A DNA stretch of 64,000 bases from Nostocales cyanobacterium HT-58-2 (lineage in GTDB: Bacteria; Cyanobacteriota; Cyanobacteriia; Cyanobacteriales; Nostocaceae), in NCBI GenBank assembly GCA_002163975.1, contig CP019636.1, forward strand, positions 2,207,001-2,271,000. Reading direction: 5' to 3'. Positions 29,073 to 55,482 of the stretch are shown one piece after another. Positions within the stretch are counted from its first letter, which is position 1, and every line of letters begins with the position of its first letter. Position numbers and translations under genes: made by a program. The notes under the pieces were generated by a model, which had not been told where the DNA came from, did no database searches, and worked only from the letters and a program-made list of their open reading frames with translations.

Positions 29073-29315
29073 TAGGACTTACGCACTTTACTTAGAGACA
29101 GTTGCATGCATCCACAGCACTGCAGTCAGTCTTCTTGGTTGAACTGACCAGAATACTGGCAATTTTTTCCATCTCTATCCCAGAACTGCATAAGTTAGCG
29201 TGGTTACATCTATTAAAAATACAGAAAGTAAGCCTGTAGGAGTGCTTAACTTCTGTTCTGTAAATCAAGTAAGGTTTATGCATACAATCAAATTTATATC
29301 AATACGTAAGTCCTA
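29073..29315. mobile_element. MITE with target duplication
   Basis: TAGGACTTACG (29073-29083) and its reverse complement CGTAAGTCCTA (29305-29315) bound a 243-bp interval flanked on both sides by CTGTA (29068-29072 and 29316-29320), a 5-bp target duplication. The AGGACTTACG end is well known from cyanobacterial insertion sequences. The interior has no coding frame with family resemblance. Confidence 0.75.
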
Positions 29316-29339
29316 CTGTAAATAATTGAGAATTGAATT

Positions 29340-30188: not shown

Positions 30189-30244
30189 CATGAGCATAGG
30201 GCATGGGAGTGCGAAAACTTTTTCTACTTGTTTAGAGGGATGTA

Positions 30245-33200
30245 ATGTTAGGCAAAAATGTGCGTTTAGCGTGTTTCAAAGGGCTAAGAATTTTGATAGC
30301 GTACCCGCGTTGCGCTTCGCTTCTCGCGCAAATCCTAACTTATCAGTTCGCTGGTGCAATAATACTTCTTACTAATTGCGCTATTGCCGAAATTGTACCT
30401 GATAGTACTCTCCCGAGTAATTCTGATGTGAAATTAGAAGGCAACACCAGAATTATTGAGGGTGGAACGCAAGCCGGAAGCAATCTTTTCCACAGTTTTT
30501 CCGAATTTTCTGTCCCCAGCAACGGTACAGCTTTTTTTAACAACGCCTCAGACGTTCAAAATATTATTAGTCGAGTGACAGGTCGCGATCGTTCTGATAT
30601 CAATGGCTTAATCAAAGCCAACGGTACGGCGAATCTGTTTTTAATTAATCCAAATGGAATTGTATTTGGACCAAATGGCAGCTTAAATATAGGCGGTTCT
30701 TTTATTGCCACAACAGCCAACGCTTTACAATTCGGTAGTCTAGGTAACTTCAGCGCTACAAATCCAGAAGCACCTTCACCATTACTGACGATTAACCCTT
30801 CAGCTTTTTTATACAACCAAATCACTACAGGAGCAATTCAAAATAACTCAGTTGCACCTGCTGGTCTTCATTTAGCAAATTTTGAAACATTTGGTTTGCG
30901 AGTACCCGATGGTAAAAGCATATTACTCATCGGTGGTAATGTAACGATGGATGGCGGACAATTAAATGCTTATGGTGGACGAATCGAATTAACAGGATTA
31001 GCTGCTCCAGGAAGTATAAACCTTATCACAGATGGCAACACTTTTAGTACTCAAGTACCTGAATCACTACGAAGTGATGTATTTTTGAATAATGAAGCGA
31101 TCGCTAATGTTTCTTATAAGAATGGTGGTAGTATCGCAGTCAACGCACGTAACATAGATTTATTAAAAAATAGTTCACTCAATGCTGGTATTGAGGTCAA
31201 TTTGGGTTCAGCAACTGCAAAAGCAGGAAATATTACTCTTGACGCCACGGAAGCAATTAGGATAGAGCAAAGCGAAATTAGAAATCAGGTGAGAACGAAT
31301 GGCATCGGGAATGCTGGTGATATTAATATTACTACTGGATTATTGTCTGTAAAGGATGGAGCTAGAATTTACACTCGTTCCTTTGGTCAGGGTAATGGCG
31401 GCAATATCAATATAAATGCTCGCGGACAAGTCTCGTTTCTGAACGGAAGTTTTGGCTGGACTAATTTAGAACCTATAGGTGTAGGAAAAAGTGGAGATTT
31501 GCAAATTCAAGCTGATTCTGTGTTAGTTGGTAACGACTCTCAATTAAATGTTAGTACTTTAGGTCAGGGAGATGCTGGTAATTTAACAATTGATGCTCGT
31601 AATACCGTTGAATTTTATAATAATTCCTTTGCCTTTAGCCAAGTTGAAAAAGGAGAAGGTAATGGCGGGATCATAAAAATCAATACGGGTTCACTCAGAC
31701 TGAACAATAATTCGTTTCTTAGTGCTAGTACCCTTGCAAAAGGAAATGCGGGTAGCTTGCAAATACAAGCTCGCGATCGTGTATCCTTTGCAAATAAGAG
31801 TAAAGCCTTTTCCACAGTCCAAGATGGCGGTATGGGAAATGGAAATGACATTTCAATCCAAGCAAGGTCAGTTTCGGTTACTGATGAATCGTTTTTAACA
31901 GCAGGGACTTTCGGTGAAGGCAACGCAGGTAATGTAATAATTGATGCTGCCGATTCAGTTATATTTGATGCTAAAAGTTATGCTGCCAGTAGCATAGGTT
32001 TGGAAGGATATGGCGTAGGATTAGGCAACGGAGGAATAATAAAAATCTCTACAGGTTCGCTTCAGCTCGCCAACCAAGCCAAATTAACAACAGAAAGCTA
32101 CAGCAAAGAAGGAAATGCAGGTAATATCATCATTAATGCCCGCGATACCGTCTCTTTATCAAATGGAAGTTCTATAAAAAGCTTGTTAGGAGGGCAAATA
32201 AAGGGTAAAGCAGGTAATATCAGCATTACCACAGGTTCACTTTCAATTGCCAGTGCTTCCTCGCTCCAGGCTGATACTTTTGGATTAGGAGACGGCGGTA
32301 ATATTAATATTGAAGCACGAGATAATGTGTCTTTTATAACCGAGGGGGGAGCTTATACTAGAGTACAACTAGATGCCAATGGTAGGGGAGGTGACATAGA
32401 TATTAAAGCAGATTCTTTGACCCTAAGTGATGGTTCTTTTATGGCAACAAGCACTCTAGGACAAGGAAATTCTGGCAGTGTAACTATCAAAGCCGCTAAT
32501 TCCGTTAATTTAAATGGAGTCAACCAACAAGGTTTTCCAGGAGGTATTTACAGCGAAGTTGCGACTATTCAACCTAATAGTGATGGAGGCGATATAAATA
32601 TCACTGCGAGGTCACTAAAAGTCAGTGATGGTGCACGCTTGGCTACCAGTACAAATGGTAATGGAAATGCTGGTAAAGTTAATATCAACGCGACTGATTT
32701 CGTTTTATTTGATGGTGTAGGCAGTAATAACCGCAGAAGTGGCGCTTATAGTCTTGTGTTACCTCTAGGAACAGGTGCGGCAAATGATATTAACATTAAT
32801 ACAGGTTCACTTTTTTTGCGAAATGGTGCGAACTTGCGCGCAGGCACGGACGGAGTAGGGAATGCAGGAAAAATAAAAATTATTGCCCAAGATACGGTAT
32901 CTATTGACGGAGCAAGCAGCTATGAATTCCCAAGTACGATTGAGAGCCAGGTAACAGAAAATGCTGTGGGCAATGGAGGTAATGTTGATATTACAACTAG
33001 GTCACTTCTTATTACCAATGACGCTGAACTATCTAGCAATAGTCAGGGAAATGGAGCAGCAGGAAATTTAACGGTAAATGCTAATTTGATTCGTCTTGAT
33101 AACCGAGGCAAAATTTCAGCTAACACTGTTGCAGGACAAGGCAATATAAATCTAAATCTAAGAAATTTATTAATAATGCGTCGTAATAGTGAAATCACTA

Positions 33201-33877
33201 CTAAAGCTTCTGGAAACAATATTACTGGTGGTAATATTAAAATTGATGGCAAAAATGGCTTTATAGTTGCAGTTAAAAATGAAAATAGTAACATTCGTGC
33301 TGATTCTGAAAACTTTCGTGGAGGAAATGTCACGATTAATGTAGCTAATATCTTTGGTTTTCAATCCCAAGCAACATCATTCCCGCAAACGAGTAGCATT
33401 ACTGCAAAAGGAGCAAGCCCTGACTTGGGGGGAAATATACAAATCAATACTCCTGATACAGACCCTAGTAGAGGATTAGTTCCTTTAGCAATAGATGTGG
33501 TGGATGTTGCCCGTTTAGTAGAGGACAATGTCTGCGCGAGAACTGCCAACAGTAGCTTCACCTATACTGGACGTGGTGGTTTACCTCCCTCTCCTAACAA
33601 CACACTTAATAGTGATGCCGTGTGGGAAGATTGGCGACTCACTGCTGTGCCAAGGGGAAGAGAGCGAGAAAGAGATAGGGGGAACTCAAAGTCCCGTCTG
33701 GGGATAAGGGAGCAAGGGGGAGAGAATAATTCCTCACACCCTACTCAAATTGTGGAAGCACAGGGGTGGATAGTGAATCAGAATGGGGAAGTGATTCTTA
33801 CAGCTTACGCTCCCACAGCCGCACCTCACAAAGTAGGCAGTTCATCATTGGGATGTCAGCTGCCAATTGCCAAGTGA
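30245..33877 (+). CDS. Haemagglutinin-like giant exoprotein (TPS-type N-terminus)
   Basis: This 1210-residue secreted beta-helix protein has a signal region (1-48), then a filamentous haemagglutinin N-terminal (TPS) domain (about 50-190: GSNLFHSFSEFSVP, NIISRVTGRDRSDINGLIKA, NLFLINPNGIVFG). Many parallel beta-helix repeats follow (GNAGNI, DGARL, ATSTNGNGNAGKV and the like, 280-1040), and a conserved C-terminal region (VARLVEDNVC, FTYTGRGGLP, DAVWEDWRLTA, IVEAQGWIVNQNGEVIL). It should be exported through an outer-membrane TpsB-type channel, which is not encoded here. The signal region contains a palindromic repeat (30310-30331) encoding YPRCASLLAQ, so an alternative start may exist. Confidence 0.88.
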   Translation: MLGKNVRLACFKGLRILIAYPRCASLLAQILTYQFAGAIILLTNCAIAEIVPDSTLPSNSDVKLEGNTRIIEGGTQAGSNLFHSFSEFSVPSNGTAFFNNASDVQNIISRVTGRDRSDINGLIKANGTANLFLINPNGIVFGPNGSLNIGGSFIATTANALQFGSLGNFSATNPEAPSPLLTINPSAFLYNQITTGAIQNNSVAPAGLHLANFETFGLRVPDGKSILLIGGNVTMDGGQLNAYGGRIELTGLAAPGSINLITDGNTFSTQVPESLRSDVFLNNEAIANVSYKNGGSIAVNARNIDLLKNSSLNAGIEVNLGSATAKAGNITLDATEAIRIEQSEIRNQVRTNGIGNAGDINITTGLLSVKDGARIYTRSFGQGNGGNININARGQVSFLNGSFGWTNLEPIGVGKSGDLQIQADSVLVGNDSQLNVSTLGQGDAGNLTIDARNTVEFYNNSFAFSQVEKGEGNGGIIKINTGSLRLNNNSFLSASTLAKGNAGSLQIQARDRVSFANKSKAFSTVQDGGMGNGNDISIQARSVSVTDESFLTAGTFGEGNAGNVIIDAADSVIFDAKSYAASSIGLEGYGVGLGNGGIIKISTGSLQLANQAKLTTESYSKEGNAGNIIINARDTVSLSNGSSIKSLLGGQIKGKAGNISITTGSLSIASASSLQADTFGLGDGGNINIEARDNVSFITEGGAYTRVQLDANGRGGDIDIKADSLTLSDGSFMATSTLGQGNSGSVTIKAANSVNLNGVNQQGFPGGIYSEVATIQPNSDGGDINITARSLKVSDGARLATSTNGNGNAGKVNINATDFVLFDGVGSNNRRSGAYSLVLPLGTGAANDININTGSLFLRNGANLRAGTDGVGNAGKIKIIAQDTVSIDGASSYEFPSTIESQVTENAVGNGGNVDITTRSLLITNDAELSSNSQGNGAAGNLTVNANLIRLDNRGKISANTVAGQGNINLNLRNLLIMRRNSEITTKASGNNITGGNIKIDGKNGFIVAVKNENSNIRADSENFRGGNVTINVANIFGFQSQATSFPQTSSITAKGASPDLGGNIQINTPDTDPSRGLVPLAIDVVDVARLVEDNVCARTANSSFTYTGRGGLPPSPNNTLNSDAVWEDWRLTAVPRGRERERDRGNSKSRLGIREQGGENNSSHPTQIVEAQGWIVNQNGEVILTAYAPTAAPHKVGSSSLGCQLPIAK
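30310..30331. repeat. Palindromic repeat in the exoprotein signal region
   Basis: TTGCGC-10nt-GCGCAA with ttcgcttctc loop, within gcgtacccgcgttgcgcttc. It lies in frame in codons 19-32 of the exoprotein and belongs to the same repeat family as that at 6904-6963. Confidence 0.6.
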
Positions 33878-34056: not shown

Positions 34057-34353
34057 ATGCCGTACTCCAGCAGCTTAACGGACAAAGAGTGGGAAATCAT
34101 TGAACCATTGTTGCCCCAAAAAAAGCAAACAAGACCACCAAAGTGGACAAAGCGACAAATCTTAGATGGTATATTTTATCAACTCAAGAATGGGTGTAAC
34201 TGGTGCGATTTACCAAAAGACTTACCGCCCTACTCAACAGTATTTTGGCACTACAAGCAGTGGCGGGAAGCAGGAGTACTAGAGCAAATGATGACAAAAT
34301 TGCATGGGAAAGTGCGCTCTAACGCCAAAAAAAACCACAGTGGACAACCCTAA
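34057..34353 (+). CDS. IS5-family transposase, first frame
   Basis: This 98-residue frame holds the N-terminal domain (LTDKEWEIIEPLLPQKK, RQILDGIFYQLKNGCNWCDL, TVFWHYKQWREAG). It ends with TAATG, overlapping the second frame. A run of eight A residues at 34327-34334, just before the end, is a likely -1 slippage site. Slipping there joins the frame to ...PQWTTLMIIDSQAVKN, giving a continuous transposase. Confidence 0.88.
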   Translation: MPYSSSLTDKEWEIIEPLLPQKKQTRPPKWTKRQILDGIFYQLKNGCNWCDLPKDLPPYSTVFWHYKQWREAGVLEQMMTKLHGKVRSNAKKNHSGQP

Positions 34354-34895
34354 TGATCATAGACTCGCAAGCAGTCAAGAATACTTGCAATGCTAGTGTA
34401 GAGTCCAAAGGGTTCTGCCATTACAAGTGTACCAATGGCATCAAACGACACTTGGCAGTAGATACTCTCGGCTTACCATTCTTCACCCACTGCACTAAAG
34501 CCAGCGTAAGTGATGACAGTGGTTTGATTGAACTGTTGAGCAAGAACATGGACTACTTTCGTGCCAAGCCTGTGAACATTCCAAAGATTACAATTTTGCT
34601 TGACCACGGTTACCACCTAGACAAGCTCACTGCTGCTTTGCAAATACTCTACCCTCAAATTATGACCAAGATCCGATTCCAACTGGCACCTAAACCCACA
34701 AAAGCCGAAAAAGCCGCTCTTGGTAAAACAGGATTTGTCCCGGTAGCAACTCGTTGGGTAATTGAACGTTCCAATGCTTGGATGGAACGATGCAAGAGTT
34801 TGGTCAAAAACTTTGAACGAACACTGGCTAACGCCACTTCCAAGCTCAATCTATGTTTTATCCGACTCATGCTCAAGCGTTTAGCTCAGGCATAG
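34353..34895 (+). CDS. IS5-family transposase, second frame (DDE core)
   Basis: This 180-residue frame carries the catalytic core: Asp in MIIDSQAVKNT, second Asp in ITILLDHGYHLDKLT and Glu in WVIERSNAWMERCKSLVKNF. The active protein is probably made as a fusion with the first frame through -1 frameshifting at the A8 run. Both frames are intact, so the copy may still transpose. Confidence 0.88.
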   Translation: MIIDSQAVKNTCNASVESKGFCHYKCTNGIKRHLAVDTLGLPFFTHCTKASVSDDSGLIELLSKNMDYFRAKPVNIPKITILLDHGYHLDKLTAALQILYPQIMTKIRFQLAPKPTKAEKAALGKTGFVPVATRWVIERSNAWMERCKSLVKNFERTLANATSKLNLCFIRLMLKRLAQA

Positions 34896-35001
34896 ATCTC
34901 AAATGGGTTCTATAAACAACATCAAAGAGTCAACACAAGTGCAAGATAGTCTTACACTTGTTTACAAACATATTTACACGAACTCGTTAATAGTTATAAA
35001 T

Positions 35002-37944
35002 ATGCTTATTGGAAATAAAATTACGGGTTTGCCGGGAGAGTGCTATCGATTCAAAGGCAATGAACCTTTACTATTAGATGACCCGCAGACAGTTTGGGTG
35101 GTGCAATCAGGTTCAATGTCACTATTTGCAATTACAGTTAACAATGGTAACCCAGAGGGAAAGCGGCGTTACCTATTTAGTATCAAATCCGCAGAAGCGA
35201 TGTTCTCAACAGCACCAGAGTTTCAAAGCGAGCAGCTCCAGATTTTAGCAGTGTCACTTGAGGAAACAGAACTGCTCAGAATGTCTCGAAAAGATTTTGA
35301 GTATATGCTCGCAAACAAACAAGGCTATGCGGTGGATTTGGTAGAGCGTTGGATACATCAACTGGGTTTGGCTGTTGCTTGTGAACCTAATCATAGCTTA
35401 AATATGCGCGTACCAGAGCCAGGAATCGAATTCTTCTCCTTAGCTAGTGGCGAGATATTCCGACCTGAAAAAGGTAGCGTATCTTGGGTACAAATCCAAC
35501 GTGGTTATGCCAAATTGATGGGATTTGCCGAACTAGTTTTTGAGCCTGCATCTGGTATGTTACCTTTGAGTGCTTATATGTGGTTGCAGGCGGAAGACAC
35601 ATTAGAATTGAAAAGCCTTCGCACCGAAGACATCGAATATGCAGATACTTTAATGGTGAGTCTGGCTCAACTGCAAATTGATTTTCTACAGATGATTAAC
35701 TTGCTCTCTAAGCAAGAAATCCAGCAAGAAATTTTGAGGTGTCAAGAAAGAGAAGACCTCAAGCGTCAGGTCATGGATGAAACATTGGGGGAACTGTCAT
35801 CCGTGCTGCAACAGCGGGAAACAGGTACCTCCCCACAAGTGATACATGGCACTTCCCCAGATCATGCTCTGTTAGTTGCTGCTGGGGCAGTCGGACATGC
35901 TCTAGGGATTAGGATTTGCCCCCCAGCTCAGTCAGAAGACTTCAAACGCCTCAAAGACCCAATAGATGCAATCGCCCGTGCTTCACGAATTCGGATGCGT
36001 CGGTTGCATCTTGTGGGGAACTGGTGGAAAAGTGACTGTGGTCCAATGCTGGCATACAGCTTAGAAGACGAAAGTCCAGTGGCTTTGTTGCCAGTTAAAG
36101 GCGATCGCTATGAAATTTATGATCCGCTCAAGCAGACTCGCACCCCCGTAGATGAGCAAAGCGCTGCTACGCTGTCCACCAATGCCTATGTATTTTATCG
36201 GCCTTTGCCCGATAAAGACCTCAAAACCTGGGATATACTTCAATTTGCACTGCGGGGTCATTTTAAGGATGTAGTTATCATCCTGTTAACTGGAATTGCT
36301 GTTTCTTTACTAGGGATGGTGACGCCTCAGGCTACTGCTATTCTCATAGACAACGTCATCCTAGATGCCAACAGGGGATTATTGCTACAAATTGCTTTGG
36401 GTCTTTGCGCAACAGCTTTTGGAGGCACAATCTTTCAACTGGCTCAGGGGCTTGCCCTGATGAGACTGGAAACTTTTGCCAACTCATCCACTCAAGCTGC
36501 GGTGTGGGACAGACTGTTGAACCTGAAAGTATCTTTTTTTAATCAGTATTCTATCGGTGACCTAGAATCTAGGGTTTCTGCCATCAGCGATATCCGCTCC
36601 AAACTAAGCGGCACAGTTCTCAAAAGTATTTTCTCTGGCGTATTTGCCTTCTTAAACTTGGGATTGCTCATCTACTACAACGGTTCATTAGCCTTAATAG
36701 CCATTGTGGCAGGGGTTGTGAATATAGCCCTCACTTTTATCTCTGGTATTCTCACCCTCCGCAAGGTTCGTCCCCTATTGGAGCAACAAGGACAAATCTT
36801 TGGCGTGATGGTGCAGTTAATCAACGGGGTTGCCAAATTGCGAGTAGCAGGAGCTGAGGAACGCGCTTTTGCGTACTGGGGTAAACAGTATAGCCAGCAA
36901 CTAAAATTGATCCTGGGTACCCAAGTCATTGAAGACATTCTCGCTGTCGTCAATAAAGTCTTGCCCATATTCACATCTTGCGTGCTTTTCTGGTTTACTG
37001 CCACATTACTACAGCAGAACCAGCAAACACAGGGTGCTCAAGCACTATCTATTGGTACTTTCCTCGCGTTCAACTCTGCTTTTGGTACCTTTATAAGCGG
37101 TGCAATCGGCTTGAGTACAACAATTGTGGACGTTCTTGAAGTCTTACCTTTGTGGAAGCGTGCTCAACCAATTTTGCAAGCAGAACCGGAAGTTAGTCAT
37201 AGTAAAGCAGATCCTGGTAAGCTATCAGGCAGAGTCGTTGTAGACCATGTGGTTTTTCGTTACCGAGATGATGGTCCGTTGATCTTAAATAATGTGAGTA
37301 TTCGGGCTGAACCTGGAGAATTTATTGCTCTGGTGGGGACTTCTGGAAGTGGTAAATCAACTTTGTTTCGCTTATTACTGGGATTTGAAACTCCGGAATC
37401 TGGCAGTATTTACTATGATGGACAGGAGTTGACAGGAGTGGATGTTCATGCTGTACGCCGACAGATGGGTGTTGTCCTGCAAAATAGCCGATTAATGTCA
37501 GCTTCCATCTTTGAAAACATTGCCAGTGGTGCCCTAGTCACAATTGATGAAGCATGGGAAGCCGCCCGGATGGCGGGTTTTGCAGATGATATCCAAGCTA
37601 TGCCAATGGGTATGCACACTGTTGTCAGTGAAGGAGGTGGTAATATCTCTGGCGGACAACGGCAGAGGCTGTTAATTGCTAGGGCGTTGGTATTGAAACC
37701 ACGAATTTTACTGTTTGATGAAGCGACCAGTGCCTTAGATAACAGAACACAGGCTATTGTCAGTGAAAGTCTTGACCAGCTAAAGGTGACGCGCATAGTT
37801 ATTGCTCACCGAGTCAGTACAATCCGCAATGCCGACCGTATCTATGTGCTTCAGGATGGTCGGATTGTACAGCAGGGCAGTTTTGAGCGACTAGCCAATC
37901 AAGAGGGGCTGTTTGCTCAACTTATGATGCGGCAGAAGCTGTAA
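35002..37944 (+). CDS. NHLP-type export ABC transporter, ATPase/permease without peptidase (set A)
   Basis: The protein is about 980 residues. The open frame reaches back to 34903, but that ATG lies in the end of the IS5 element; MLIGNKITGLPGECYRFKGN at 35002 aligns with the start of the paralogue at 57712. The N-terminal 400 residues are a domain of unknown function typical of NHLP bacteriocin-export permease/ATPases. Next come a six-helix permease (about 420-690) and an ATPase with GTSGSGKST, NISGGQRQRLLIARAL and ILLFDEATSALD. No C39 peptidase is present. It should work with a C39-ABC and HlyD partner; those of set A lie about 3.7 kb away on the opposite strand. Confidence 0.9.
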   Translation: MLIGNKITGLPGECYRFKGNEPLLLDDPQTVWVVQSGSMSLFAITVNNGNPEGKRRYLFSIKSAEAMFSTAPEFQSEQLQILAVSLEETELLRMSRKDFEYMLANKQGYAVDLVERWIHQLGLAVACEPNHSLNMRVPEPGIEFFSLASGEIFRPEKGSVSWVQIQRGYAKLMGFAELVFEPASGMLPLSAYMWLQAEDTLELKSLRTEDIEYADTLMVSLAQLQIDFLQMINLLSKQEIQQEILRCQEREDLKRQVMDETLGELSSVLQQRETGTSPQVIHGTSPDHALLVAAGAVGHALGIRICPPAQSEDFKRLKDPIDAIARASRIRMRRLHLVGNWWKSDCGPMLAYSLEDESPVALLPVKGDRYEIYDPLKQTRTPVDEQSAATLSTNAYVFYRPLPDKDLKTWDILQFALRGHFKDVVIILLTGIAVSLLGMVTPQATAILIDNVILDANRGLLLQIALGLCATAFGGTIFQLAQGLALMRLETFANSSTQAAVWDRLLNLKVSFFNQYSIGDLESRVSAISDIRSKLSGTVLKSIFSGVFAFLNLGLLIYYNGSLALIAIVAGVVNIALTFISGILTLRKVRPLLEQQGQIFGVMVQLINGVAKLRVAGAEERAFAYWGKQYSQQLKLILGTQVIEDILAVVNKVLPIFTSCVLFWFTATLLQQNQQTQGAQALSIGTFLAFNSAFGTFISGAIGLSTTIVDVLEVLPLWKRAQPILQAEPEVSHSKADPGKLSGRVVVDHVVFRYRDDGPLILNNVSIRAEPGEFIALVGTSGSGKSTLFRLLLGFETPESGSIYYDGQELTGVDVHAVRRQMGVVLQNSRLMSASIFENIASGALVTIDEAWEAARMAGFADDIQAMPMGMHTVVSEGGGNISGGQRQRLLIARALVLKPRILLFDEATSALDNRTQAIVSESLDQLKVTRIVIAHRVSTIRNADRIYVLQDGRIVQQGSFERLANQEGLFAQLMMRQKL

Positions 37945-38058: not shown

Positions 38059-40713
38059 TCAATTTGCAATTGCTGGCTGACATCCAAATGGGGAATTTCT
38101 CAGCCTGTGAGGCGTTACCACAGGCACATTAGCTACTAGTATGACTTCCCCATTAGCATTTACCACCCAACCTTGGGCTTCGACAATTTGAGTGGGGGGT
38201 GGTGAGGGGTGAGAGGTGAGTGAAGAATTATTCTCTCCTCCTCTTGTTGGTACAGCAGTGAGTCGCCAATCTTCCCAAACTGCATCGTTGTTGAGTGTGT
38301 TGGTGGGAGAGGACGGTAAACCGCCACGTCCTGTGTAAGTGAAGCTACTGTTAGCAGTTTTGGTGCAGATATTATCATCTACTAAACGCGCCACATCCAC
38401 CACATCCACTTTTAAGGGAACTAATCCTTTACTAGGGTCAACATCCGGTGTGTTGATTCGTACTGTGCCACTTAAGTCAGGAGTTTTTCCTATAGCAGTG
38501 ATATCACTAGTCTGGAGGCTAGGTGGGTTCCGAAACTGAGCGCCGAATACACCTTGAGTCTTGATTTTTACTTGCCCTCCAAGAAATTCATCAGAATTGG
38601 CAGTGATATCACTGTTTTCAAACGCTGCTAGAACCCCAGTACTAATGTTGATATTGCCACCAATCACATTGATACCTTTGGCGTTCGCGGTGATTTGACT
38701 CCCACGACGCAATACCAAACCTACAGAATTGATATTAATATTTGCTTGTTGGCGACTTGGGTCAGTGGTAACGCTGGTGGTATTTGCATTGAGGCGAGAG
38801 TTACTGTCTAAAAGGATAAAGTTAGCGTTTAAGTTAATATTGCCTGCATTTCCTAGTCCTTCACTTTTGACTAATACTTCTGCTCCATCTTTTATAGTGA
38901 GTAGTTCTGTATTAATTGTCACATCTCCAGCCCTTCCCGTTGAATCTTTACCAGCTAGGGCACCCACAGCACTGCTAAAAAGTAGCTGTACGGATTCAGT
39001 AGCATTTACTAATACATTGCCACCACTGCCTTCACCAAAAGTACTAGCGCTGATCTCCGCTCCTTGGTCAAGACGCAACGTCCGAGTATTAATTGTCAAG
39101 TCCCCCGCCGCTCCTTTTGCACCTGAGGTATCTTGTTGAGTATATAAGCCACTCGGAAGTTCTCCATCGGGGGTAAGGAGACCAGTCAGTTCCACGGCAC
39201 CGCCATTAGTATTAACAGTCAAATTTCCCCCCCTACCATTGCCACGAGTGCCAGCGCTGATATAAGCTCCACTCTCAAGACGTAGCAGGGGAGTATTGAT
39301 TGTCAGGTTTCCTGCAATACCTGTAGCATCTTGTGCTGCTTGAGAATTTAAAGCGCTACTAGTCTTGATCTGCACTGAGTCAGTGGCATTTACAGTCAAA
39401 TTTGCTCCATTACCTGAACCAAAAGTGTCAGTACTGACCAATGCTCCATCACTCAGGCTCAACACGCGAGTATTAATTTTTAATTCTGTAGTCGCATTTG
39501 TTGAGCCACGAACTTGAATACCCAAGCCAGTAGGGAATGGATTATTATTACCAATCAGTTCCACTGTATCTGCATTCACTGTCAAATTTCCTACCCTGCC
39601 CACACCTTTGGTGACTGCACTGACTTGGGCTCCATCTTGGACTTGCAATAAGCGCGTATTTATCGTTATATCTCCTGCTGACCCTGTGGCATTTTCTTCA
39701 GCTTGAGCATAAAAGCCTCCAGGAAATGGAAACTCTGCACCGGGGCTGCTATACACACCACTAAGTTGCACCTCATCCAAAGTATTTACGGTTAAATTTC
39801 CACCTATGTTTGAACCTAAAGTACTTGTTTCAATCACGGAACCATCACTCAATTTCAGGCTTCTAGCTGTGACTTGAACATCTCCGCCACCATCGCCTGT
39901 GGTATCAACCGCTGTTTGTTGAGATAGTCGAATACTTCCCAAGTTTTGCAAGCCACCATAGCTTAGGGAAAAGCCATTTTCTGTAGGAACGAGACTCACC
40001 AAACGATTAGAACCAGCACTACCTAATTCAATTCGCCCTCCCGCCGTTTTGAGTGTTGCCCCTTCTAAAGAGATATCTCCACCTACCAAAGCTAAGGTTT
40101 GATTCTCTTGCACTCGTAAACCGACATTAGTATCTATTGCAGGAGATGGGGTGGTTCGACTTCTGATCCCCTGTCCGTCTCCCTGTACTTGAATCAAACC
40201 GGGATTTGCCCCAAATTGTAAACCAATAGGAGTACTAACAGTTAACAGAGGTGTTGTTTGTGGGGTGGTACTATACTCAAATCCGTCAGCAAACTTTACA
40301 CTATTTGCAGTCGTGGCAAAAAAAGAGCCTCCAATTTCTAAACGAGCATCTTTCCCGAATACAATCCCGTTGGGATTGATGAGAAACAGGTTAACTGTAC
40401 CATTAGCTTTAATTAATCCATCAATATTAGAGATAGATTTACCAGTGATGCGACCAATAATATGTTGAATGCTCTGGATGTTATTAAAGTACGCTGTGCT
40501 ACCGTTCGGGACAAAAAATTCTGAAAAACTATGAAATAAATTGCTTCCAGATTTAGTGCCACCTTCAATATTTATAATATTGTCAATAATTGTAACGCGA
40601 GAATTTTCGGGTAGAGTCGTATCTGGAGTGATTTGGGCAATCGTAGAATTTCCCCAAATAGAGAACGCAACACAATTAGCAATTCCAAACCATCTCCGCC
40701 AGTTTAAGTGCAT
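38059..40713 (-). CDS. Second haemagglutinin-like exoprotein
   Basis: The secreted protein is about 884 residues. An upstream ATG at 40752 adds 13 residues, but MHLNWRRWFGIANCVAFSIW at 40713 makes a standard signal peptide. The TPS domain has GSNLFHSFSEFFVPNGSTAY, then IIGRITGKSISNIDGLIKAN and LFLINPNGIVFG. Beta-helix repeats follow (DVQVTARSLKLSDGS, GNLTVNA, DGAQVSAVTKG). The C-terminal 150 residues (VARLVDDNICTKTANSSFTY, AVWEDWRLTAVP, IVEAQGWVVNANGEVILVAN) are very close to those of the exoprotein at 30245. It converges with the set A ABC gene. Confidence 0.9.
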   Translation of the reverse strand: MHLNWRRWFGIANCVAFSIWGNSTIAQITPDTTLPENSRVTIIDNIINIEGGTKSGSNLFHSFSEFFVPNGSTAYFNNIQSIQHIIGRITGKSISNIDGLIKANGTVNLFLINPNGIVFGKDARLEIGGSFFATTANSVKFADGFEYSTTPQTTPLLTVSTPIGLQFGANPGLIQVQGDGQGIRSRTTPSPAIDTNVGLRVQENQTLALVGGDISLEGATLKTAGGRIELGSAGSNRLVSLVPTENGFSLSYGGLQNLGSIRLSQQTAVDTTGDGGGDVQVTARSLKLSDGSVIETSTLGSNIGGNLTVNTLDEVQLSGVYSSPGAEFPFPGGFYAQAEENATGSAGDITINTRLLQVQDGAQVSAVTKGVGRVGNLTVNADTVELIGNNNPFPTGLGIQVRGSTNATTELKINTRVLSLSDGALVSTDTFGSGNGANLTVNATDSVQIKTSSALNSQAAQDATGIAGNLTINTPLLRLESGAYISAGTRGNGRGGNLTVNTNGGAVELTGLLTPDGELPSGLYTQQDTSGAKGAAGDLTINTRTLRLDQGAEISASTFGEGSGGNVLVNATESVQLLFSSAVGALAGKDSTGRAGDVTINTELLTIKDGAEVLVKSEGLGNAGNINLNANFILLDSNSRLNANTTSVTTDPSRQQANININSVGLVLRRGSQITANAKGINVIGGNINISTGVLAAFENSDITANSDEFLGGQVKIKTQGVFGAQFRNPPSLQTSDITAIGKTPDLSGTVRINTPDVDPSKGLVPLKVDVVDVARLVDDNICTKTANSSFTYTGRGGLPSSPTNTLNNDAVWEDWRLTAVPTRGGENNSSLTSHPSPPPTQIVEAQGWVVNANGEVILVANVPVVTPHRLRNSPFGCQPAIAN

Positions 40714-41117
40714 ATTTATCCCTGATACTAGAGTCAAGAATGGCTCTAACACATCATCACATTTTTAGGTACGTCGGTACACATTGGTGTCAATATGTTG
40801 CCTAATAACCCAAGTTGCTAGTGATAAAAAAGCACCTCTTTTGTCGTTGCAGAACTGGAATTGGAAGCCCCTTTTTCAGCGAAGCAAAAAGGGGTACTTC
40901 ACTAGTGTTTGTTGAGAAAAAGTTCAAGGACAAGGGTTAAAGGAATACAGAAATACCTCTCCCCCAAATCCCCTCCAGGAAACTCTGAGTTCCCCTTACC
41001 CTTGAGTTTTTATGATTGTGGACAAAACGTTTATATCTGAAAGTTTTCACTGATTAGTTGACACTAATGGTCAGATGACAATCCCACAATATGGATAATT
41101 TATTTCCTGGTTGTCTC
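40714..41117. other. Intergenic region with strong hairpin
   Basis: No gene is seen. CCCCTTTTT-9nt-AAAAAGGGG (40868-40894) is a perfect 9-bp stem. It may be a terminator for the peptide gene read on the minus strand or an interspersed repeat. The part 40955-41010 is a degenerate C-rich stretch. Confidence 0.45.
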
Positions 41118-41339
41118 TTATGTCCCCATCGATCTAGGACGCGGGTTTGGCATCAAGTGGTAATCTCCAACATCAACCCATTTCTTTGTTTCTGAACACC
41201 ATTTTAAAATACCACCACTAATCGCATCTAAATCGGCTTCATTGACTTCCTCTACGCCTGGAATTGATTTTTGCTCGGATACCAACTCGTTATTTTGGTT
41301 GTTCTGAATCTTTTGTTGGTTTGTATGATTCTGGGTCAT
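41118..41339 (-). CDS. Double-glycine leader peptide, probable exported bacteriocin-like precursor
   Basis: The 73-residue protein has a polar leader ending VEEVNEADLDAISGG (G42 G43), a textbook double-glycine site for C39 peptidase exporters. The core would be 30 residues with one Cys (C48), two Trp and a Pro/Arg-rich tail (LMPNPRPRSMGT). A perfect ribosome site (AAGGAG, 9 nt before ATG) is present. It lies on the same strand just downstream of the C39-ABC/HlyD pair of set A. No modification enzyme is encoded nearby, so the core may be exported unmodified. Its activity (toxin, signal or adhesin cofactor) is unknown. Confidence 0.82.
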   Translation of the reverse strand: MTQNHTNQQKIQNNQNNELVSEQKSIPGVEEVNEADLDAISGGILKWCSETKKWVDVGDYHLMPNPRPRSMGT

Positions 41340-41596
41340 TGTGATTATCTCCTTGTTGATTGGCTTTAGTTCAGTAATAGTATAAATAGATACTGTTTTA
41401 TGAAAGCAGCTTAACTAGCAGAACTAGCTACACACATATGACTCAATCCTGTGAGGTTTGAAACCTTCTACTAACTTATAGGGAACGTTCAAGTTGACTT
41501 ATGCAGTTAGGCTCGTCTCTGGGACAGAAAAAATCGGTGTAATCTTTGGTTGGCAAGCATTTCATGTTTTTTGAAATTTCTAGTGATACATTGCTA

Positions 41597-43882
41597 TCAA
41601 AGAGCATCTCCCTCACTGCGGATCAATTGCAAGTATGCTCCTTCGACTTGTTGCAATTCTTCATGAGTTCCCCGTTGCACTACCTTTCCCCGTTCCAAAA
41701 CAATAATTTCATCACAATCGCGGATGGTACTCAGTCGATGTGCCACAATAATGCAAGTACATCCTCGCTGACGTAGTTTTTGGTCAATAATTTTTTCTGT
41801 TTCAGCATCCAGGGCGCTTGTGGCTTCATCCATGATGAGGATGGAGGGGTTATTAACTAAAGCACGAGCTATTTCCAAACGCTGTCGCTGACCGCCACTC
41901 AAATTAGTAGCTCCTTCTAAAAGGATGCTATCATAGCCTCCTGGTAGGGAAAGGACTGTATCATGGATGGCTGCATCCTGACAAGCTTGCACTAAATGGC
42001 TTTCAGGCACAGTAGTATCCCAAAGGGTTAAATTGTCCCTGACGCTACCAGCAAATAATAAAATATCTTGCTCTACGAAGGCGATAGAATTCACCAGGAC
42101 TGGGCGAGGAATTTGATTTCTGGGTTTGCCATCAAATTGAATTTCTCCCTGAGTCGGTTCATATAGCCCACATATGAGTTTGGCAATGGTAGATTTACCA
42201 GAACCACTTCCACCAACAAGGGCAACTCGCTGTCCTGGTTTGATTGATAAATTAAAGTTTTCAATTAAGGGAGCAGCAGCTTGGTTGTAGCCAAATGTCA
42301 CATTCTCCAACTTGACATACCCCTGCAATTTGGGCATGATTCTAGAGAAGGTTAGGGGTTGAGAGGAAGTTTCTCTCGTTTCCTCTTTTAACTGCGGATC
42401 TATCGGGTTTTGGGAAACATCATCCAAGCGATTTAGGCTACCCTCGACTTTTTGGAGATCACTGCCAAGACTAACGAGATTATTCACAGGCTCCATAAAA
42501 CTATTCATTAGTCCTTGAAATGCTACTAGCATTCCAATAGTCAAGTTACCGTCCATAACCCGCAGCCCACCAACAGCTAAGACTAACATGGATGTCATGG
42601 TCGATAAGAACGAGGGCAAAATTCCCAAACCCTGGCTAGTTATATCTATTTCCTGTCGCGCATTAATCGCGTTGGCATAGTAGCCGGCCCATCGGGCAAA
42701 GAAATCAGACTCTAACCCAGATGCTTTTAAAGTTTCCATACTTTGGAGACCAGAAATAGCCACTCCACTAACTTTTCCTTGCTCCTGCATGAATCTGATA
42801 TTGGCGTCTACGCGCCACCGAGATACTTGCTGCAATGTCAGGAGATTCACAGCGACAAAGATGATCCCAATTAAGGTCAACACCGCGTCATATTGCAGCA
42901 TAACAATTGCATAAAAAATGACCATGACTGCAGCGATCGCAGTAGTGGCTAATTTCCCCGACAGCAGATCGGCTAAGTCGTCGTTAAGATGGATGCGGTT
43001 GCTGATTTCTCCGGCAAATCTTTGAGCATAAAAACTTACAGGTAAACGCAGGATATGCCATAAAAATCGGCTGGACATACTCACAGATAACTTAATCTTC
43101 ATCCGGCGCAGAAACTTTAACTGTAGTAATGTCAACAGTCCATTCAGGATGGCTGTGAGTATCATTCCTAACAGGAGTGGGCGCAGCCAATCCTGCCTGT
43201 TTTGTACCAAAATATTATCTACAAACACTTGGGAAAATACGGGTGATACTAGTCCAGGAATGACGAGTAAAAATCCAGCGAAAATGCAGTAGAGCAGTAC
43301 CTCACCAGACCCTTGCAGACGTTCCCGCAAAGCTAAGATAATGTTGGGTTTGCTACCACCTTTTTGGAACTGTTGACCTGGTTCCAAAAGCAGTACAATT
43401 CCTGTGAAACTTGCGTCAAATTCTTGCGCAGATATAGACCTTGGTCCGGTTGCGGGGTCATTCAGATAAACTTGCTTGTCGCTAAACCCCTCCACGACCA
43501 AGAAATGGTTAAAGTTCCAAAAGACGATGTAGGGGCATTGCAAATGTCGCAGTCCATCCAAATCTGCTTTCAAACCTTTGGCATTTAATCCGTAGCCTCT
43601 AGCAGCGTTAAGGATATTTGAAGCTTTGCTCCCATCCCGCGATACGCCGCAATCTTGACGCAGTTGCGCTAGGGGTACAATCCGACCGTAGTAACCCAGA
43701 ATAATTCCCAAAGCAGCAGCGCCACATTCCACCGCTTCCATTTGCAAAACAGTGGGGGTACGACGCCGAATGTCCCTATCCCCAAATAAAGTTAGTATTT
43801 TTTTGACAAAAGTTATCGCAGTAGAAATACGATGGCGAATATTTTTATTTGTAAATATTGCTTGTAGCTTTGACAACAACAT
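41597..43882 (-). CDS. C39-peptidase ABC exporter (NHLP type, set A)
   Basis: This 761-residue protein has an N-terminal C39 peptidase with Cys in VECGAAAL (C53), His in NFNHFLVVEGF (H126) and Asp in YLNDPATG (D142), all in place. The permease spans about 175-460 and the ATPase carries GGSGSGKST, NLSGGQRQRLEIARAL and ILIMDEATSALD. It should cleave leaders after GG and export the core. The HlyD partner precedes it by 24 nt and the leader peptide gene follows 257 nt downstream, so all three probably form one transcription unit. Confidence 0.93.
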   Translation of the reverse strand: MLLSKLQAIFTNKNIRHRISTAITFVKKILTLFGDRDIRRRTPTVLQMEAVECGAAALGIILGYYGRIVPLAQLRQDCGVSRDGSKASNILNAARGYGLNAKGLKADLDGLRHLQCPYIVFWNFNHFLVVEGFSDKQVYLNDPATGPRSISAQEFDASFTGIVLLLEPGQQFQKGGSKPNIILALRERLQGSGEVLLYCIFAGFLLVIPGLVSPVFSQVFVDNILVQNRQDWLRPLLLGMILTAILNGLLTLLQLKFLRRMKIKLSVSMSSRFLWHILRLPVSFYAQRFAGEISNRIHLNDDLADLLSGKLATTAIAAVMVIFYAIVMLQYDAVLTLIGIIFVAVNLLTLQQVSRWRVDANIRFMQEQGKVSGVAISGLQSMETLKASGLESDFFARWAGYYANAINARQEIDITSQGLGILPSFLSTMTSMLVLAVGGLRVMDGNLTIGMLVAFQGLMNSFMEPVNNLVSLGSDLQKVEGSLNRLDDVSQNPIDPQLKEETRETSSQPLTFSRIMPKLQGYVKLENVTFGYNQAAAPLIENFNLSIKPGQRVALVGGSGSGKSTIAKLICGLYEPTQGEIQFDGKPRNQIPRPVLVNSIAFVEQDILLFAGSVRDNLTLWDTTVPESHLVQACQDAAIHDTVLSLPGGYDSILLEGATNLSGGQRQRLEIARALVNNPSILIMDEATSALDAETEKIIDQKLRQRGCTCIIVAHRLSTIRDCDEIIVLERGKVVQRGTHEELQQVEGAYLQLIRSEGDAL

Positions 43883-43906
43883 TATTTATTAAAATTTTAG
43901 ACTACG

Positions 43907-45175
43907 TTAATTGACACCAGTGAAAGACTTGAGGAGAGGAAAAACAAAGCTAATAGGCGCTCGTTCCTCTGTGGTGACTCTTACGGTAGTCGTAGTGCCA
44001 GAAGAAATTTTCATCTGCGGACCTTTGGAAGAAGACCACTTGTATCCACTGAAGGTTGAGTTGTCTGGTTGCAAGTCAGCAAAAACTTGGATTTGAGGTC
44101 CTTGAGCCATCAAGCTTTGCACAACCTCTGAATTGCCTACTAGACTTAAAGCACCCTCTTTAGTGACAGGAAAAGCTGAGACATCGGTGACAGTAGCCAC
44201 GATGCCGCCAAATCGTTCGCGCTCTACTGTGGAAGGTGTAATTTGTACCTTCATTCCTGTGCGAATCTTCTTACCATCGCTCACAGGAAAGAAAGTCAGG
44301 GCAGTTATTTTGCCTGATGGCTCCTCTGCTTGAATAGTGGCAATGCGGGTTCCTTGGCTAACGACTTGCCCAGGAAATGTAGTTACTTCTAAAACTCGTC
44401 CGCTGTAAGGACTGATAACTTGGCTGTTTTTCTGTAATTGCACTTCCAATTGGGCGATATTTTGCCGTACCTCTTGGATCTGATTTTGTCGGGTGGTTGA
44501 AAATTGAAAATTTTGTTCAATCAGACTTTTTTCTTTGATTACCAATCCTTGCAACTGGCTTTGGAAGTCGTTGATTTGGCTGAGCTTCTCCTGGTATGCT
44601 TGTTGTGCCTGTAAAACCATTTCCTCTGAAATTGCCCCTTGTGCCTTCAGCTTTTTGAGCCTCTCGAATCTAGTGTTGAGAATAGGGGCTAAACTTTTAG
44701 CTTGACGGAGGTTTTGCTGTAGGCTGTAGCGTTGCTGGGCGATCGCTTTAATTTCTAGTTCGCTTCGTAAAGATTGCAATGAGTTAGCGTTCTGATTCTG
44801 GCTTTTTAGTTCTAGTAGCTTGATACCCTGCTGCTGTAGTTGTTTCTGGAGTTCGGCTTGGTCAATCATTGCCAGTATCTGTCCCTTTTTGACAAATTCC
44901 CCAACACGTAAATTCATTGCCACCAATTGTCCGCTAGCTGGCGACTGGAAAGCCATAACCTTGCTAGGATAAATTAATACCCCTTGACCTGTAACCGTAA
45001 TGGGTATGCGACCAACAATACTCCAGATAACTGCTGTTGCTACCAACGAACCAAGAGCAGTTAAAGGTAGCCAATTCATTGGGTGGATCACTTGCATGAC
45101 TTGATCCAACCGTTCTGGGGAAGATGAACTTTCTAAAGCTTTTTTTCGGAAAAGGTTGTTATTTTGTGTAACCAT
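43907..45175 (-). CDS. HlyD-family adaptor of NHLP export (set A)
   Basis: This 422-residue membrane-fusion protein has a cytoplasmic N-terminus (FRKKALESSSSPERLDQVMQ), one membrane helix (about 35-57), a lipoyl-like half (GQLVAMNLRVGEFVKKGQIL), a long coiled coil (about 105-265) and a closing half (VISPYSGRVLEVTTFPGQVV). It links the inner-membrane ABC to the outer envelope. It is the first gene of the HlyD-C39ABC-peptide unit and clearly paralogous to the protein at 54022. Confidence 0.92.
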   Translation of the reverse strand: MVTQNNNLFRKKALESSSSPERLDQVMQVIHPMNWLPLTALGSLVATAVIWSIVGRIPITVTGQGVLIYPSKVMAFQSPASGQLVAMNLRVGEFVKKGQILAMIDQAELQKQLQQQGIKLLELKSQNQNANSLQSLRSELEIKAIAQQRYSLQQNLRQAKSLAPILNTRFERLKKLKAQGAISEEMVLQAQQAYQEKLSQINDFQSQLQGLVIKEKSLIEQNFQFSTTRQNQIQEVRQNIAQLEVQLQKNSQVISPYSGRVLEVTTFPGQVVSQGTRIATIQAEEPSGKITALTFFPVSDGKKIRTGMKVQITPSTVERERFGGIVATVTDVSAFPVTKEGALSLVGNSEVVQSLMAQGPQIQVFADLQPDNSTFSGYKWSSSKGPQMKISSGTTTTVRVTTEERAPISFVFPLLKSFTGVN

Positions 45176-52555: not shown

Positions 52556-53983
52556 ATGGTACATCCTTACACAAAAACTATGCGCTCGCTGTGGTCAAAA
52601 CCTATGAAGAAGCAGGAACAGCCAATTGCCGCAGAGCAAAGAAATCTACCTGTAATTAACCCGAATGCGGCAGGTATTGATATTGGTGCTGATAGACATT
52701 GGGTGAGTGTTCCTGTTGACAGGGATAGCGAGAATGTGCATAGTTTTGCTTGCTTTACAGCAGAGCTATATGCAATGGCTGATTGGTTAAAACAGTGTGG
52801 GATTGAAACGGTGGCAATGGAATCAACAGGGGTCTATTGGATACCTGTGTTTCAAGTGTTAGAAAGCCGTGGTTTCGAGGTCAAGTTGGTAAATGCTCAC
52901 TACGTCAAAACTGTACCTGGTCGGAAAACGGATGTTTTAGATTGCCAATGGCTGCAAAAGTTACATAGTTATGGTTTGTTATCCGGTTCATTCCGTCCAG
53001 ATGACCAAATCTGTGTCCTGCGTAGTTACATTCGACAACGAGATAACTTAATCAAGAGTGCTTGTGTTCACGTACAACGAATGCAAAAAGCCTTGACCGA
53101 GATGAATCTACAACTGCACAGAGTGATTAGTGACATTACAGGTACTACAGGCTTGAGCATTATCAAAGCCATTGTCAGGGGCGAACGTAACCCACTTACC
53201 CTCGCCGCACTTAAGGATGGGCGTATCAAAGCCTCTTGTGAAGAGATTGCTGCCGCTTTGACGGGCGATTATCGTGATGAGTTGATTTTCATCCTACAAC
53301 AGGAATTGCAACTGTACGAGTTTTACCAGACACAGATTCTCGCCGTCGATGCCCAAATTGAGCAATGCTTGGCTTCATTTGCTGATAGGGTTGATGTGAC
53401 AAAAAAGCCATTAACCAAACCTAAACGCCGAGGTAAGAAGCAGCCCGGTAATGCGCCTCAATTTGACCTGCGTACTCACTTGTATCGCATTAGTGGCGTT
53501 GATTTTACTCAAATTCAGGGCTTTGGCGCTTTGACCGTATTGATATTGTTGTCCGAGTTGGGATTAGATCCGACTCGTTTCCCAACTGTGAAGCACTTTA
53601 CTTCATGGTTAGGTTTATGCCCTGGTAGCCGTGTGACTGGTGGTAAAGTCAAAAGCTCTCAAACTCGCTCTGTTGTTAGTCGTGCTGCCAACGCTTTCCG
53701 GATGGCGGCTCAAACTCTTTGCCGTAGTAACTCGGCTTTAGGTGCTTATTACCGTCGTATGCAAGCCAAAATCGGCGCTCCCAAAGCTATTACTGCTGCT
53801 GCTCACAAGCTAGCACGTATTTTTTATCGCCTTTGGACTTCTGGTGATAAATTTATTGACCCTGGTGTTGATGCTTATGAGCAACAGTATCGAGAGCGGG
53901 TAGTTAATAACCTCAAGAAAAAAGCTTTGACTTTTGGTTTAGAACTCATCCCCATTTCTGACTCAACGCAATGTGTTTCTTGA
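52556..53983 (+). CDS. IS110-family transposase
   Basis: This 475-residue recombinase has a RuvC-like DEDD core: GIDIGADRHWVSVPVDRD (first Asp), VAMESTGVYWIPVFQ (Glu) and KTDVLDCQWLQKL (Asp pair). Its C-terminal Tnp20-type domain carries ISGVDFTQIQGFGALTVL and WLGLCPGSRVTGGKVKSSQT. Where many family members have a Ser before GGK, this has Thr. Starts at 52556 or 52604 (MKKQEQPIAAEQRN) are both possible. The element separates the signalling genes from the HlyD gene of export set B, so it may weaken co-transcription. Confidence 0.92.
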   Translation: MVHPYTKTMRSLWSKPMKKQEQPIAAEQRNLPVINPNAAGIDIGADRHWVSVPVDRDSENVHSFACFTAELYAMADWLKQCGIETVAMESTGVYWIPVFQVLESRGFEVKLVNAHYVKTVPGRKTDVLDCQWLQKLHSYGLLSGSFRPDDQICVLRSYIRQRDNLIKSACVHVQRMQKALTEMNLQLHRVISDITGTTGLSIIKAIVRGERNPLTLAALKDGRIKASCEEIAAALTGDYRDELIFILQQELQLYEFYQTQILAVDAQIEQCLASFADRVDVTKKPLTKPKRRGKKQPGNAPQFDLRTHLYRISGVDFTQIQGFGALTVLILLSELGLDPTRFPTVKHFTSWLGLCPGSRVTGGKVKSSQTRSVVSRAANAFRMAAQTLCRSNSALGAYYRRMQAKIGAPKAITAAAHKLARIFYRLWTSGDKFIDPGVDAYEQQYRERVVNNLKKKALTFGLELIPISDSTQCVS

Positions 53984-54021
53984 GAGTTAAACAAATCAAA
54001 TTTAAAATTCAAAAAAACAGT

Positions 54022-55467
54022 ATGCAAAGTAAAGAAAATAAACTTTTTCGTCAAGAAGCTTTAGAACGCTTATCTTCGCCAGAACGGCTAGATCAGTTGA
54101 TGCAGGTAGTTAACCGTAGAGCATGGTTACCCCTGACTACAATTGGCTCTTTAGTCGTCGTTGCTGTAATTTGGAGTATATTCGGACGGATTCCGCTCAC
54201 TGTCAACGGTCAGGGCGTACTGATCAGACCCCGCAATGTGGTGCCATTTCAAGTTGCTAGTGAAGGTCAAATTGTCACACTCAATCTTAAGTCAGGGGAT
54301 AGAATTAAGTCAGGGGATGTTCTCGGTACAATCGACCAACCCCAACTGAGGCAGCAGCTACAGCAAGAGCAGTCAAAACTAGCCGAACTGCTCAATCAGA
54401 ACAGAGAAACCGATGAACTTCAAAGGCGGGGAATTGCTCTCAAACGAGAGAACTTAGTGAAGCAGCGAACTGTCCTCCAGCAAAACCTGACTACTGCTGA
54501 AAAGTTTGGACCAGTTGTGCTGGAAAAAAGTATTAAGTCCCTAGCACAACGGCGTGCAAGCCTCCAGCAAAGTCTACGGCAAAGTAGATCCCTCATCCCG
54601 ACCTTCAAACGACGGCTTGAAGTTCGACGTTATCTTAGGCGAGAGGGAGCCATTACAGATGATGTGTTGTTGCAATCTCAACAAGAATATACAGAAAATC
54701 TAACCAAGGTGTCAGATTTGGAAGCGCAACTCAAGGAACTTGATCGCCAACAAACCGAGGCAGAATCCCAGTACGTGAGCAATCGCAACTCCATTAAAGA
54801 TATTAATGCCCAAATCCAAAACCTTGATGTCCAAGCAGCCCAACTGGAGCAACAAGACCGAGAGCAGTCAATTGAAAAAAATAATAAAATCCAGACAAGT
54901 AAACGTCAGATTTCCCAACTGGAATTAGAACTAGCGACAAAAAGCAAAATTGTCAGCAAATATAATGGTCGCGTCCTAGAAGTTGCCATAGTCCCTGGTC
55001 AAACAGTCAGTGCAGGCACTCGCATTGCTTCGATTGAAACCGAAGACCGCAACTCTCAACTCATCAGTGTCATCTACCTCGCCGACAAAGACGGTAAACA
55101 AATTAAGCCGGGAATGCCTGTACAAGTCACTCCTAGTATGGTTAAGCGCGAACGTTTCGGCGGTGTTATGGGCAAAGTCACCGAGGTTCGCCCCTTCCCA
55201 GTAACGAACCAAGATATGACCGCAATCATCGGTAACGAAAACCTGGCGAGCAGTATAACACAAAGTTTGGGTGGGGCACCGATGCAAATCTTTGCCTCTC
55301 TGGAACAAGACCCAAAAACTGTTAGTGGCTACAAATGGTCTTCCTCCAATGGACCACCACTACAAATTTCTTCCGGGACTACTGCCCAAGTCCGGGTACA
55401 AGTCGGGCAACAAGCGCCCATTTCCTACGTGATTCCGATCTTCAAGTCTTTAACTGGTATTTACTAA
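54022..55467 (+). CDS. HlyD-family adaptor of NHLP export (set B)
   Basis: The protein is about 481 residues. The frame is open from 53971, inside the IS110 gene, but MQSKENKLFRQEALERLSSP at 54022 aligns with the set A adaptor. One membrane helix (WLPLTTIGSLVVVAVIWSIF), then GQIVTLNLKSGDRIKSGDVL, a long coiled coil (about 100-310) and VSKYNGRVLEVAIVPGQTVS. It pairs with the two ABC proteins that follow after 15 and 12 nt. The coiled coil is about 60 residues longer than that of set A. Confidence 0.9.
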   Translation: MQSKENKLFRQEALERLSSPERLDQLMQVVNRRAWLPLTTIGSLVVVAVIWSIFGRIPLTVNGQGVLIRPRNVVPFQVASEGQIVTLNLKSGDRIKSGDVLGTIDQPQLRQQLQQEQSKLAELLNQNRETDELQRRGIALKRENLVKQRTVLQQNLTTAEKFGPVVLEKSIKSLAQRRASLQQSLRQSRSLIPTFKRRLEVRRYLRREGAITDDVLLQSQQEYTENLTKVSDLEAQLKELDRQQTEAESQYVSNRNSIKDINAQIQNLDVQAAQLEQQDREQSIEKNNKIQTSKRQISQLELELATKSKIVSKYNGRVLEVAIVPGQTVSAGTRIASIETEDRNSQLISVIYLADKDGKQIKPGMPVQVTPSMVKRERFGGVMGKVTEVRPFPVTNQDMTAIIGNENLASSITQSLGGAPMQIFASLEQDPKTVSGYKWSSSNGPPLQISSGTTAQVRVQVGQQAPISYVIPIFKSLTGIY

Positions 55468-55482
55468 AAAGACTATTAAACT

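Follow-up and report, generated by a model that had tools for sequence, protein, structure and literature searches.

Many cyanobacterial precursor peptides whose leader ends in a double glycine (GG) have been called bacteriocins on the grounds of their closeness to ATP-binding cassette (ABC) transporters with a C39 peptidase domain. In 2011, Wang et al. catalogued 290 such precursors with very little conservation of the core, and one more unclassified GG precursor is ordinary, since 150 of the 290 fall outside the named families, under “Other” (PMC3140520). A function outside the cell other than killing has been described for EbfG1-4 of Synechococcus elongatus PCC 7942, GG peptides which are required for biofilm formation and whose efficient secretion needs the C39 protein PteB (PMC4997328); EbfG4 is located at the cell surface and in the matrix (PMC9981879). 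In Moraxella catarrhalis, the bacteriocin Mcb is encoded in the order membrane-fusion adaptor, C39-ABC and GG peptide, with an immunity gene overlapping the bacteriocin gene (PMC2761928). Here we analyzed a stretch of 64,000 nucleotides from Nostocales cyanobacterium HT-58-2 (G000:C1:2207001-2271000, within a genome of 7.9 Mb), hereafter the window, which holds a gene for a 73-residue GG-leader peptide together with C39-type exporter genes. In all four genomes where we found the peptide, its gene is paired with a two-partner secretion (TPS) exoprotein gene of one clade, and the identity of the peptide appears to switch at the cleavage codons. We found neither this conserved pairing nor the switch described, and no other pair of a GG peptide and a TPS protein either, in the literature searched, which lacked most subscription journals.

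The precursor gene lies at 41118-41339 on the minus strand and, as a preliminary description of this DNA had claimed, encodes a leader ending in ...NEADLDAISGG followed by a core of 30 residues with one cysteine. The leader comprises residues 1-43 (41211-41339, minus strand), with GG at its end and hydrophobic residues at positions -4 (I40), -7 (L37), -12 (V32) and -15 (V29). The core, ILKWCSETKKWVDVGDYHLMPNPRPRSMGT, comprises residues 44-73 (41118-41210 including the stop codon, minus strand); it is hypervariable among the homologues and has its single cysteine at residue 48. A strong Shine-Dalgarno site, AACAAGGAGATAATCACA, precedes the start codon within the 5′ region of the gene (41340-41596, minus strand), and an open frame with a start codon and a good Shine-Dalgarno site is present in all four peptide genes, namely those of the window and of three further genomes from its family, G018, G075 (taken as Calothrix sp. 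HK-06, a Nostocales genome) and G022. Among 488 open reading frames (ORFs) of 30-200 residues in the window, the peptide ORF alone fits a strict GG-leader pattern, and a narrower count of ORFs of 50-120 residues gave none in 30 dinucleotide-shuffled windows. The peptide gene is real.

The next gene after the peptide was missed in the preliminary description, whose coordinates of 41118-45175 cover the peptide, C39-ABC and HlyD genes but omit both this gene and the second ABC gene introduced below. It encodes a TPS exoprotein of 897 residues (38059-40752, minus strand; judging from G018, it may start at about 40713) with the TPS secretion domain PF05860 at its N-terminus (residues 39-294, E 2.8e-64). 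In the window, G018, G075 and G022 alike, the peptide gene stands immediately before such a TPS gene, in the same orientation, and the gap from the end of the peptide gene to the longest TPS frame is 365, 291, 56 and 112 bp, respectively. Because the transporter is not adjacent in G022, the constant partner of the peptide gene is the TPS gene.

Two sets of TPS loci show how restricted the pairing is. The first consisted of 59 loci from 149 relatives and the window's own genome, including several that are pieces of one gene; a TPS frame was obtained from 51, and the four peptide loci were the sole carriers of the peptide. The second came from a profile of the four TPS proteins run against 211 genomes, where the peptide lies upstream in 4 of the 56 matches listed (E up to 1e-170) and is absent from the other 52. 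These 56 comprise the best locus of each of 30 genomes (4 with the peptide, 26 without) and 26 more loci, none with the peptide; the upstream side of one locus (L192) is covered for 785 bases and another locus (L213) contains masked bases. The four TPS proteins paired with the peptide score 1439-1661 bits against the profile, the next best 916, and they form one clade both in a tree of 36 of the 51 frames (support 100/99, the bootstrap being not quite settled) and in a 30-row tree of the second set (100 by the Shimodaira-Hasegawa-like approximate likelihood ratio test, SH-aLRT). With one TPS clade and the peptide at 4 of 56 loci, a single gain of the pairing explains the pattern.

Other GG precursors were also seen near TPS genes. 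In the window's own genome, three near-identical precursors of the CTB type stand before another TPS gene (L120, together with L064:2912-12092), with an HlyD gene between two TPS genes, and such proximity of TPS genes to GG-precursor systems may be more widespread. At two further loci (L104 and L105) unrelated GG ORFs lie near TPS genes on the opposite strand. In the four TPS proteins the alignment continues almost to the C-termini, with many invariant residues in the C-terminal region, so that these proteins are not CdiA-like with swapped tips; a CdiA-type contact-dependent toxin was rejected, as there is no variable toxic C-terminus. Between the peptide and the TPS gene lies a perfect 9-bp inverted repeat (40868-40894; CCCCTTTTT/AAAAAGGGG), and a check of this hairpin as a dispersed repeat gave three exact copies in the genome, for which no further meaning was found.

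The second main finding is the contrast between a constant leader and a changing core. When the window is compared with G018, 64 of 81 aligned bases ahead of the start codon match, as do 118 of 129 bases of the leader; in the core just 32 of 72 aligned bases match (with gaps in 21 columns), and in the stretch between the core and the TPS gene 126 of 319. Over the 43 leader codons we counted 7.0 synonymous and 4.0 non-synonymous changes (dS 0.366, dN 0.039; Fisher p = 0.0007 on rounded counts), and these substitution counts place the leader under purifying selection between the window and G018, the genomes closest to each other. Conservation of the GG site among homologues had been proposed as a check: the GG is kept in four of four, as are the hydrophobic residues at -4, -7 and -12.

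For the cores, six pairs were compared against shuffled sequence. Those of G018 and G075 are not similar to the core of the window (4341 and 4068 of 5000 shuffles, respectively, score as high), whereas that of G022, the outermost of the four in the TPS tree, is similar (score 51, with 2 of 5000 shuffles as high). This likeness has a z of 6.3 against 3.5 for the next in a comparison with 107 other distinct GG-ORF cores, which came from the loci fetched by then and are in many cases unverified frames. It suggests that the window and G022 hold an old core type (WC..TKK..V...) which was replaced or diverged in G018 and G075. Each of the four cores has exactly one cysteine, at core position 3-6, and the G018 leader has a duplicated N-terminus. 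A frame-shift origin of the G018 core was set aside by eye, the other frames after the GG being unlike the window core. On these alignments, turnover of the core sets in at the cleavage site, with identity switching at the cleavage codons.

The exporter genes are those of the NHLP export system, since all three products score far above the curated cut-offs. The preliminary description was right that the C39-ABC and HlyD genes are intact: NHLM ABC1, a C39 peptidase-permease-ATPase, lies at 41597-43882 on the minus strand (TIGR03796, 1181.6 bits against a cut-off of 853.3), and the HlyD adaptor at 43907-45175 on the same strand (TIGR03794, 409.3 against 156.2). NHLM ABC2 lies at 34903-37944 on the plus strand, convergent with the rest, with a probable start at about 35005 by comparison with G018 (TIGR03797, 1039.2 bits against 709.4); it belongs to the same system. 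ABC1 carries Cys53, His126 and Asp142, which by their motif are the presumed C39 triad. That the genes form a single unit holds well for HlyD and ABC1, which are 24 bp apart, and less well for the peptide gene, which follows 257 bp past ABC1. A scan of this 257-bp gap for promoters and terminators found nothing, which says little because it gave fewer sites overall than shuffled sequence.

Calling the transporter the peptide's own exporter was too strong. The C39-ABC gene adjoins the peptide gene in the window, G018 and G075 but not in G022, where no HlyD, ABC1 or ABC2 match lies within 19.5 kb around the peptide-TPS pair. In a quick tree of 41 ABC1 proteins, those of the window, G018 and G075 form a group (SH-aLRT 84), which is joined next by a G022 ABC1 from another contig (L033; SH-aLRT 88), the same order as in the TPS tree. 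The exporter of the G022 peptide may act in trans, with moderate support from this tree. As to ABC2, two transposase-like ORFs (34057-34895), presumably of the IS5 type, end 7 bp ahead of its listed start in the window, and the G018 frame lacks the first residues of this ORF, so that expression of ABC2 may be altered; in G075, all that is left of the ABC2 next to the peptide gene is two fragments (L039:9318-9831). The convergent arrangement of ABC1 and ABC2 differs from the tandem order counted by hand in 34 of 40 compared loci, or 35 counting L068, which is matched by a second HlyD, C39-ABC and ABC2 set of the window (53971-60600, plus strand). The window has no strict GG ORF other than the peptide, and the ABC1 of this second set groups with that of L068, a locus of the same genome carrying mersacidin/lichenicidin-type precursors.

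In its family relations the peptide stands apart. It has no match above cut-off in the curated families of NCBIfam and Pfam, and to this extent it resembles no peptide family, as had been stated, although the core has one diverged homologue, that of G022. The window peptide did not match the NHLP/Nif11 leader precursors (TIGR03793, TIGR03798) at E up to 10, and the CTB bacteriocin model NF038167 (cut-off 32 bits), scanned over three peptides, gave no match for the window at E up to 10 nor for G018 and G075 at E up to 1. The class IIb lactobin/cerein model (TIGR03949) reached 12.4 bits over residues 30-47 only, under its cut-off of 21.5. The peptide does have the marks of a double-glycine precursor of the PCAT/AMS type, namely the GG, the hydrophobic residues at -4, -7 and -12, and a C39 exporter with Cys, His and Asp nearby. 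No modification-enzyme family was found among the neighboring proteins scanned, which made up part of the window ORFs.

Searches for further members returned few. With the single sequence as query, the search of 149 relatives matched 45 genomes, counting that of the window, at E up to 1; apart from the window, only G018 (E 1.9e-20) and G075 (E 3.4e-6) were clear, and a weak match in G022 (E 0.011) proved to be a real and informative homologue. A better-scoring match in G014 (L004, E 0.008) was rejected for its internal stop and lack of a GG ORF, and another weak match (L006) was rejected on inspection. A profile of the first three peptides recovered those three clearly from 217 family genomes, and eight other genomes (E ≤ 0.01, all E ≥ 2e-4) held Nif11 leaders, leaders of other kinds or chance matches. 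The G022 peptide escaped this profile at E up to 0.01, the row for G022 being another GG ORF, and diverged members may therefore be missed; that other locus (L075:1531-2033) has two nearly identical GG ORFs with the core CGYHHPRPQPKKRTCVVYRPY[YH]YSCH. Taken as query against 211 genomes, the G022 peptide found itself and the window peptide (E 0.009), not those of G018 or G075. An order-wide profile search, for which 388 genomes were drawn, gave 69 matching genomes at E up to 0.05, with the window and G075 clear; G018 and G022 are not among the matches listed, the drawing of either being not shown, and 28 further loci were set aside as other GG precursors aligning by the leader end, ABC ATPase ORFs or chance frames. 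Among GTDB contigs, the single sequence found no close relative and the alignment A2 found one, in Calothrix sp. HK-06, and a plasmid collection gave no match. On these searches the peptide family is rare.

The explanation that we prefer, and to which we give about an even chance, is a surface or matrix role alongside the TPS protein. The leader helix would dock onto the C39 domain of the adjacent NHLP-type ABC1, which would cut after Gly43. The 30-residue core, probably unmodified, would then leave by way of ABC1 with HlyD (and ABC2) and an outer-membrane channel. Functionally, the peptide gene would belong with the TPS gene that follows, as both products are predicted to end outside the cell, and the core would act at the cell surface or in the matrix, either with the adhesin-like TPS protein or whenever the latter acts. 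In this model, we infer the cleavage, the export and the shared surface role. Export by the C39 system, which the preliminary description had also assumed, is very likely, because the three transport proteins score so far above the NHLM cut-offs and because the GG and the hydrophobic -4, -7 and -12 positions kept in all four homologues are those that the C39 domain of LahT requires (PMC6363468). We favor a surface role since both linkage and phylogeny connect the peptide with the TPS protein, and since a surface or matrix role is on record for GG peptides of Synechococcus; of the three roles suggested before (bacteriocin, signal or surface-protein cofactor) it is the last that is best supported, as all four peptide genes precede a TPS gene of one clade. 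Many GG precursors having been named for their transporters alone, it matters that the comparative data point to a secreted surface protein as partner and thus to a concrete, testable role other than that of an antibiotic, with a peptidase ABC exporter and two-partner secretion, two secretion routes, linked in one small conserved unit.

Compared with the described systems, the locus shares with those of Wang et al. the short C39-ABC, the second ABC protein without peptidase, HlyD and a small GG precursor, and differs in having one precursor, which is tied to a TPS exoprotein clade instead of to the transporter (PMC3140520). With EbfG1-4 and PteB it has in common a cyanobacterial GG peptide, predicted C39 ABC protein-assisted export and, on the preferred reading, a function outside the cell other than killing; the mature EbfG parts are of 6-7 kDa (PMC4997328) against about 3.5 kDa estimated from 30 residues here. 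The word stem “hemagglutin” is absent from the main texts of PMC3140520 and PMC4997328, and “double-glycine” has no occurrence in the accessible main text of PMC3482391.

Several points weigh against the surface role. Fast change of the core is as typical of bacteriocins as of surface factors, and a common transcript of the two genes is uncertain, because the window and G018 have a long gap there that is conserved at so few bases. The linkage could reflect co-inheritance without joint function; likewise the ABC1 tree may merely follow the species tree, so that vertical descent alone could yield the pattern, and the quick run for this tree flagged two long branches (L055 with L041) that join near this point. 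Four loci are known from an insensitive search in which peptides far from TPS genes could be missed.

The main rival to the surface role, which we regard as unlikely overall, is a class II type bacteriocin whose core kills close relatives and turns over in an arms race, the TPS gene being a bystander or presenting the peptide. The GG leader, the C39 exporter and the small core all fit, as does a core unrelated to that of the nearest relative while the leader and 5′ region stay alike. The CTB family shares the transporter type and the double-glycine leader end, and CTB-type precursors are found in NHLP loci of relatives, where they adjoin cNMP/HlyD genes; among the typed precursors scanned, two (L040 and L064) exceed the NF038167 cut-off and three more are weak. 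The window peptide itself matches no bacteriocin model above cut-off, and where Mcb has its overlapping immunity gene (PMC2761928), none is seen here: by eye, no ORF common to the four loci lies between the peptide and TPS genes, and the short gaps of G075 and G022 leave little room for one there. A bacteriocin with immunity encoded elsewhere is possible.

A secreted signal of kinship or cell density, with control over the TPS gene or the biofilm state, seems improbable to us. C39 ABC transporters export antimicrobial or quorum-signaling peptides in Gram-positive bacteria (PMC6363468), and a leader that alone is constant with a core that varies is what specificity factors show; but we know of no receptor, for which no systematic search was made, and a large response-regulator-like ORF near the G022 pair (L083:12891-15290) has no counterpart noted in the window. 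Similarly improbable is a cassette-type recognition system, with the leader and the TPS adhesin as a constant frame and an exchangeable core starting exactly at the cleavage site; the TPS protein would bind this core or be presented together with it, and the core would serve to mark, or to gate, contacts among filaments of a single strain. That the core is degenerating, the leader being kept through recent descent of a peptide without present function, is very improbable: it would account for the window, G018 and G075 cores aligning no clearly better than shuffled sequence and for the state of ABC2 in G075 and in the window, but it is opposed by purifying selection on the leader, the four open and translatable-looking frames, the likeness of the window and G022 cores and the single cysteine held within a few core positions.

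Elsewhere in the window, genes for sigma-factor-like, DUF1822, putatively CHAT-like (773 residues), DUF928 and TPS proteins stand in a row at 23497-33877, a region that has been rearranged, because its first four genes directly follow HlyD in G018. The protein encoded at 2818-3735 combines a TIR domain at the N-terminus with a GUN4 domain at the C-terminus. At 8217-10232, an NB-ARC/WD40 (STAND-like) protein adjoins a WD40 protein, and its gene could be a defense gene.

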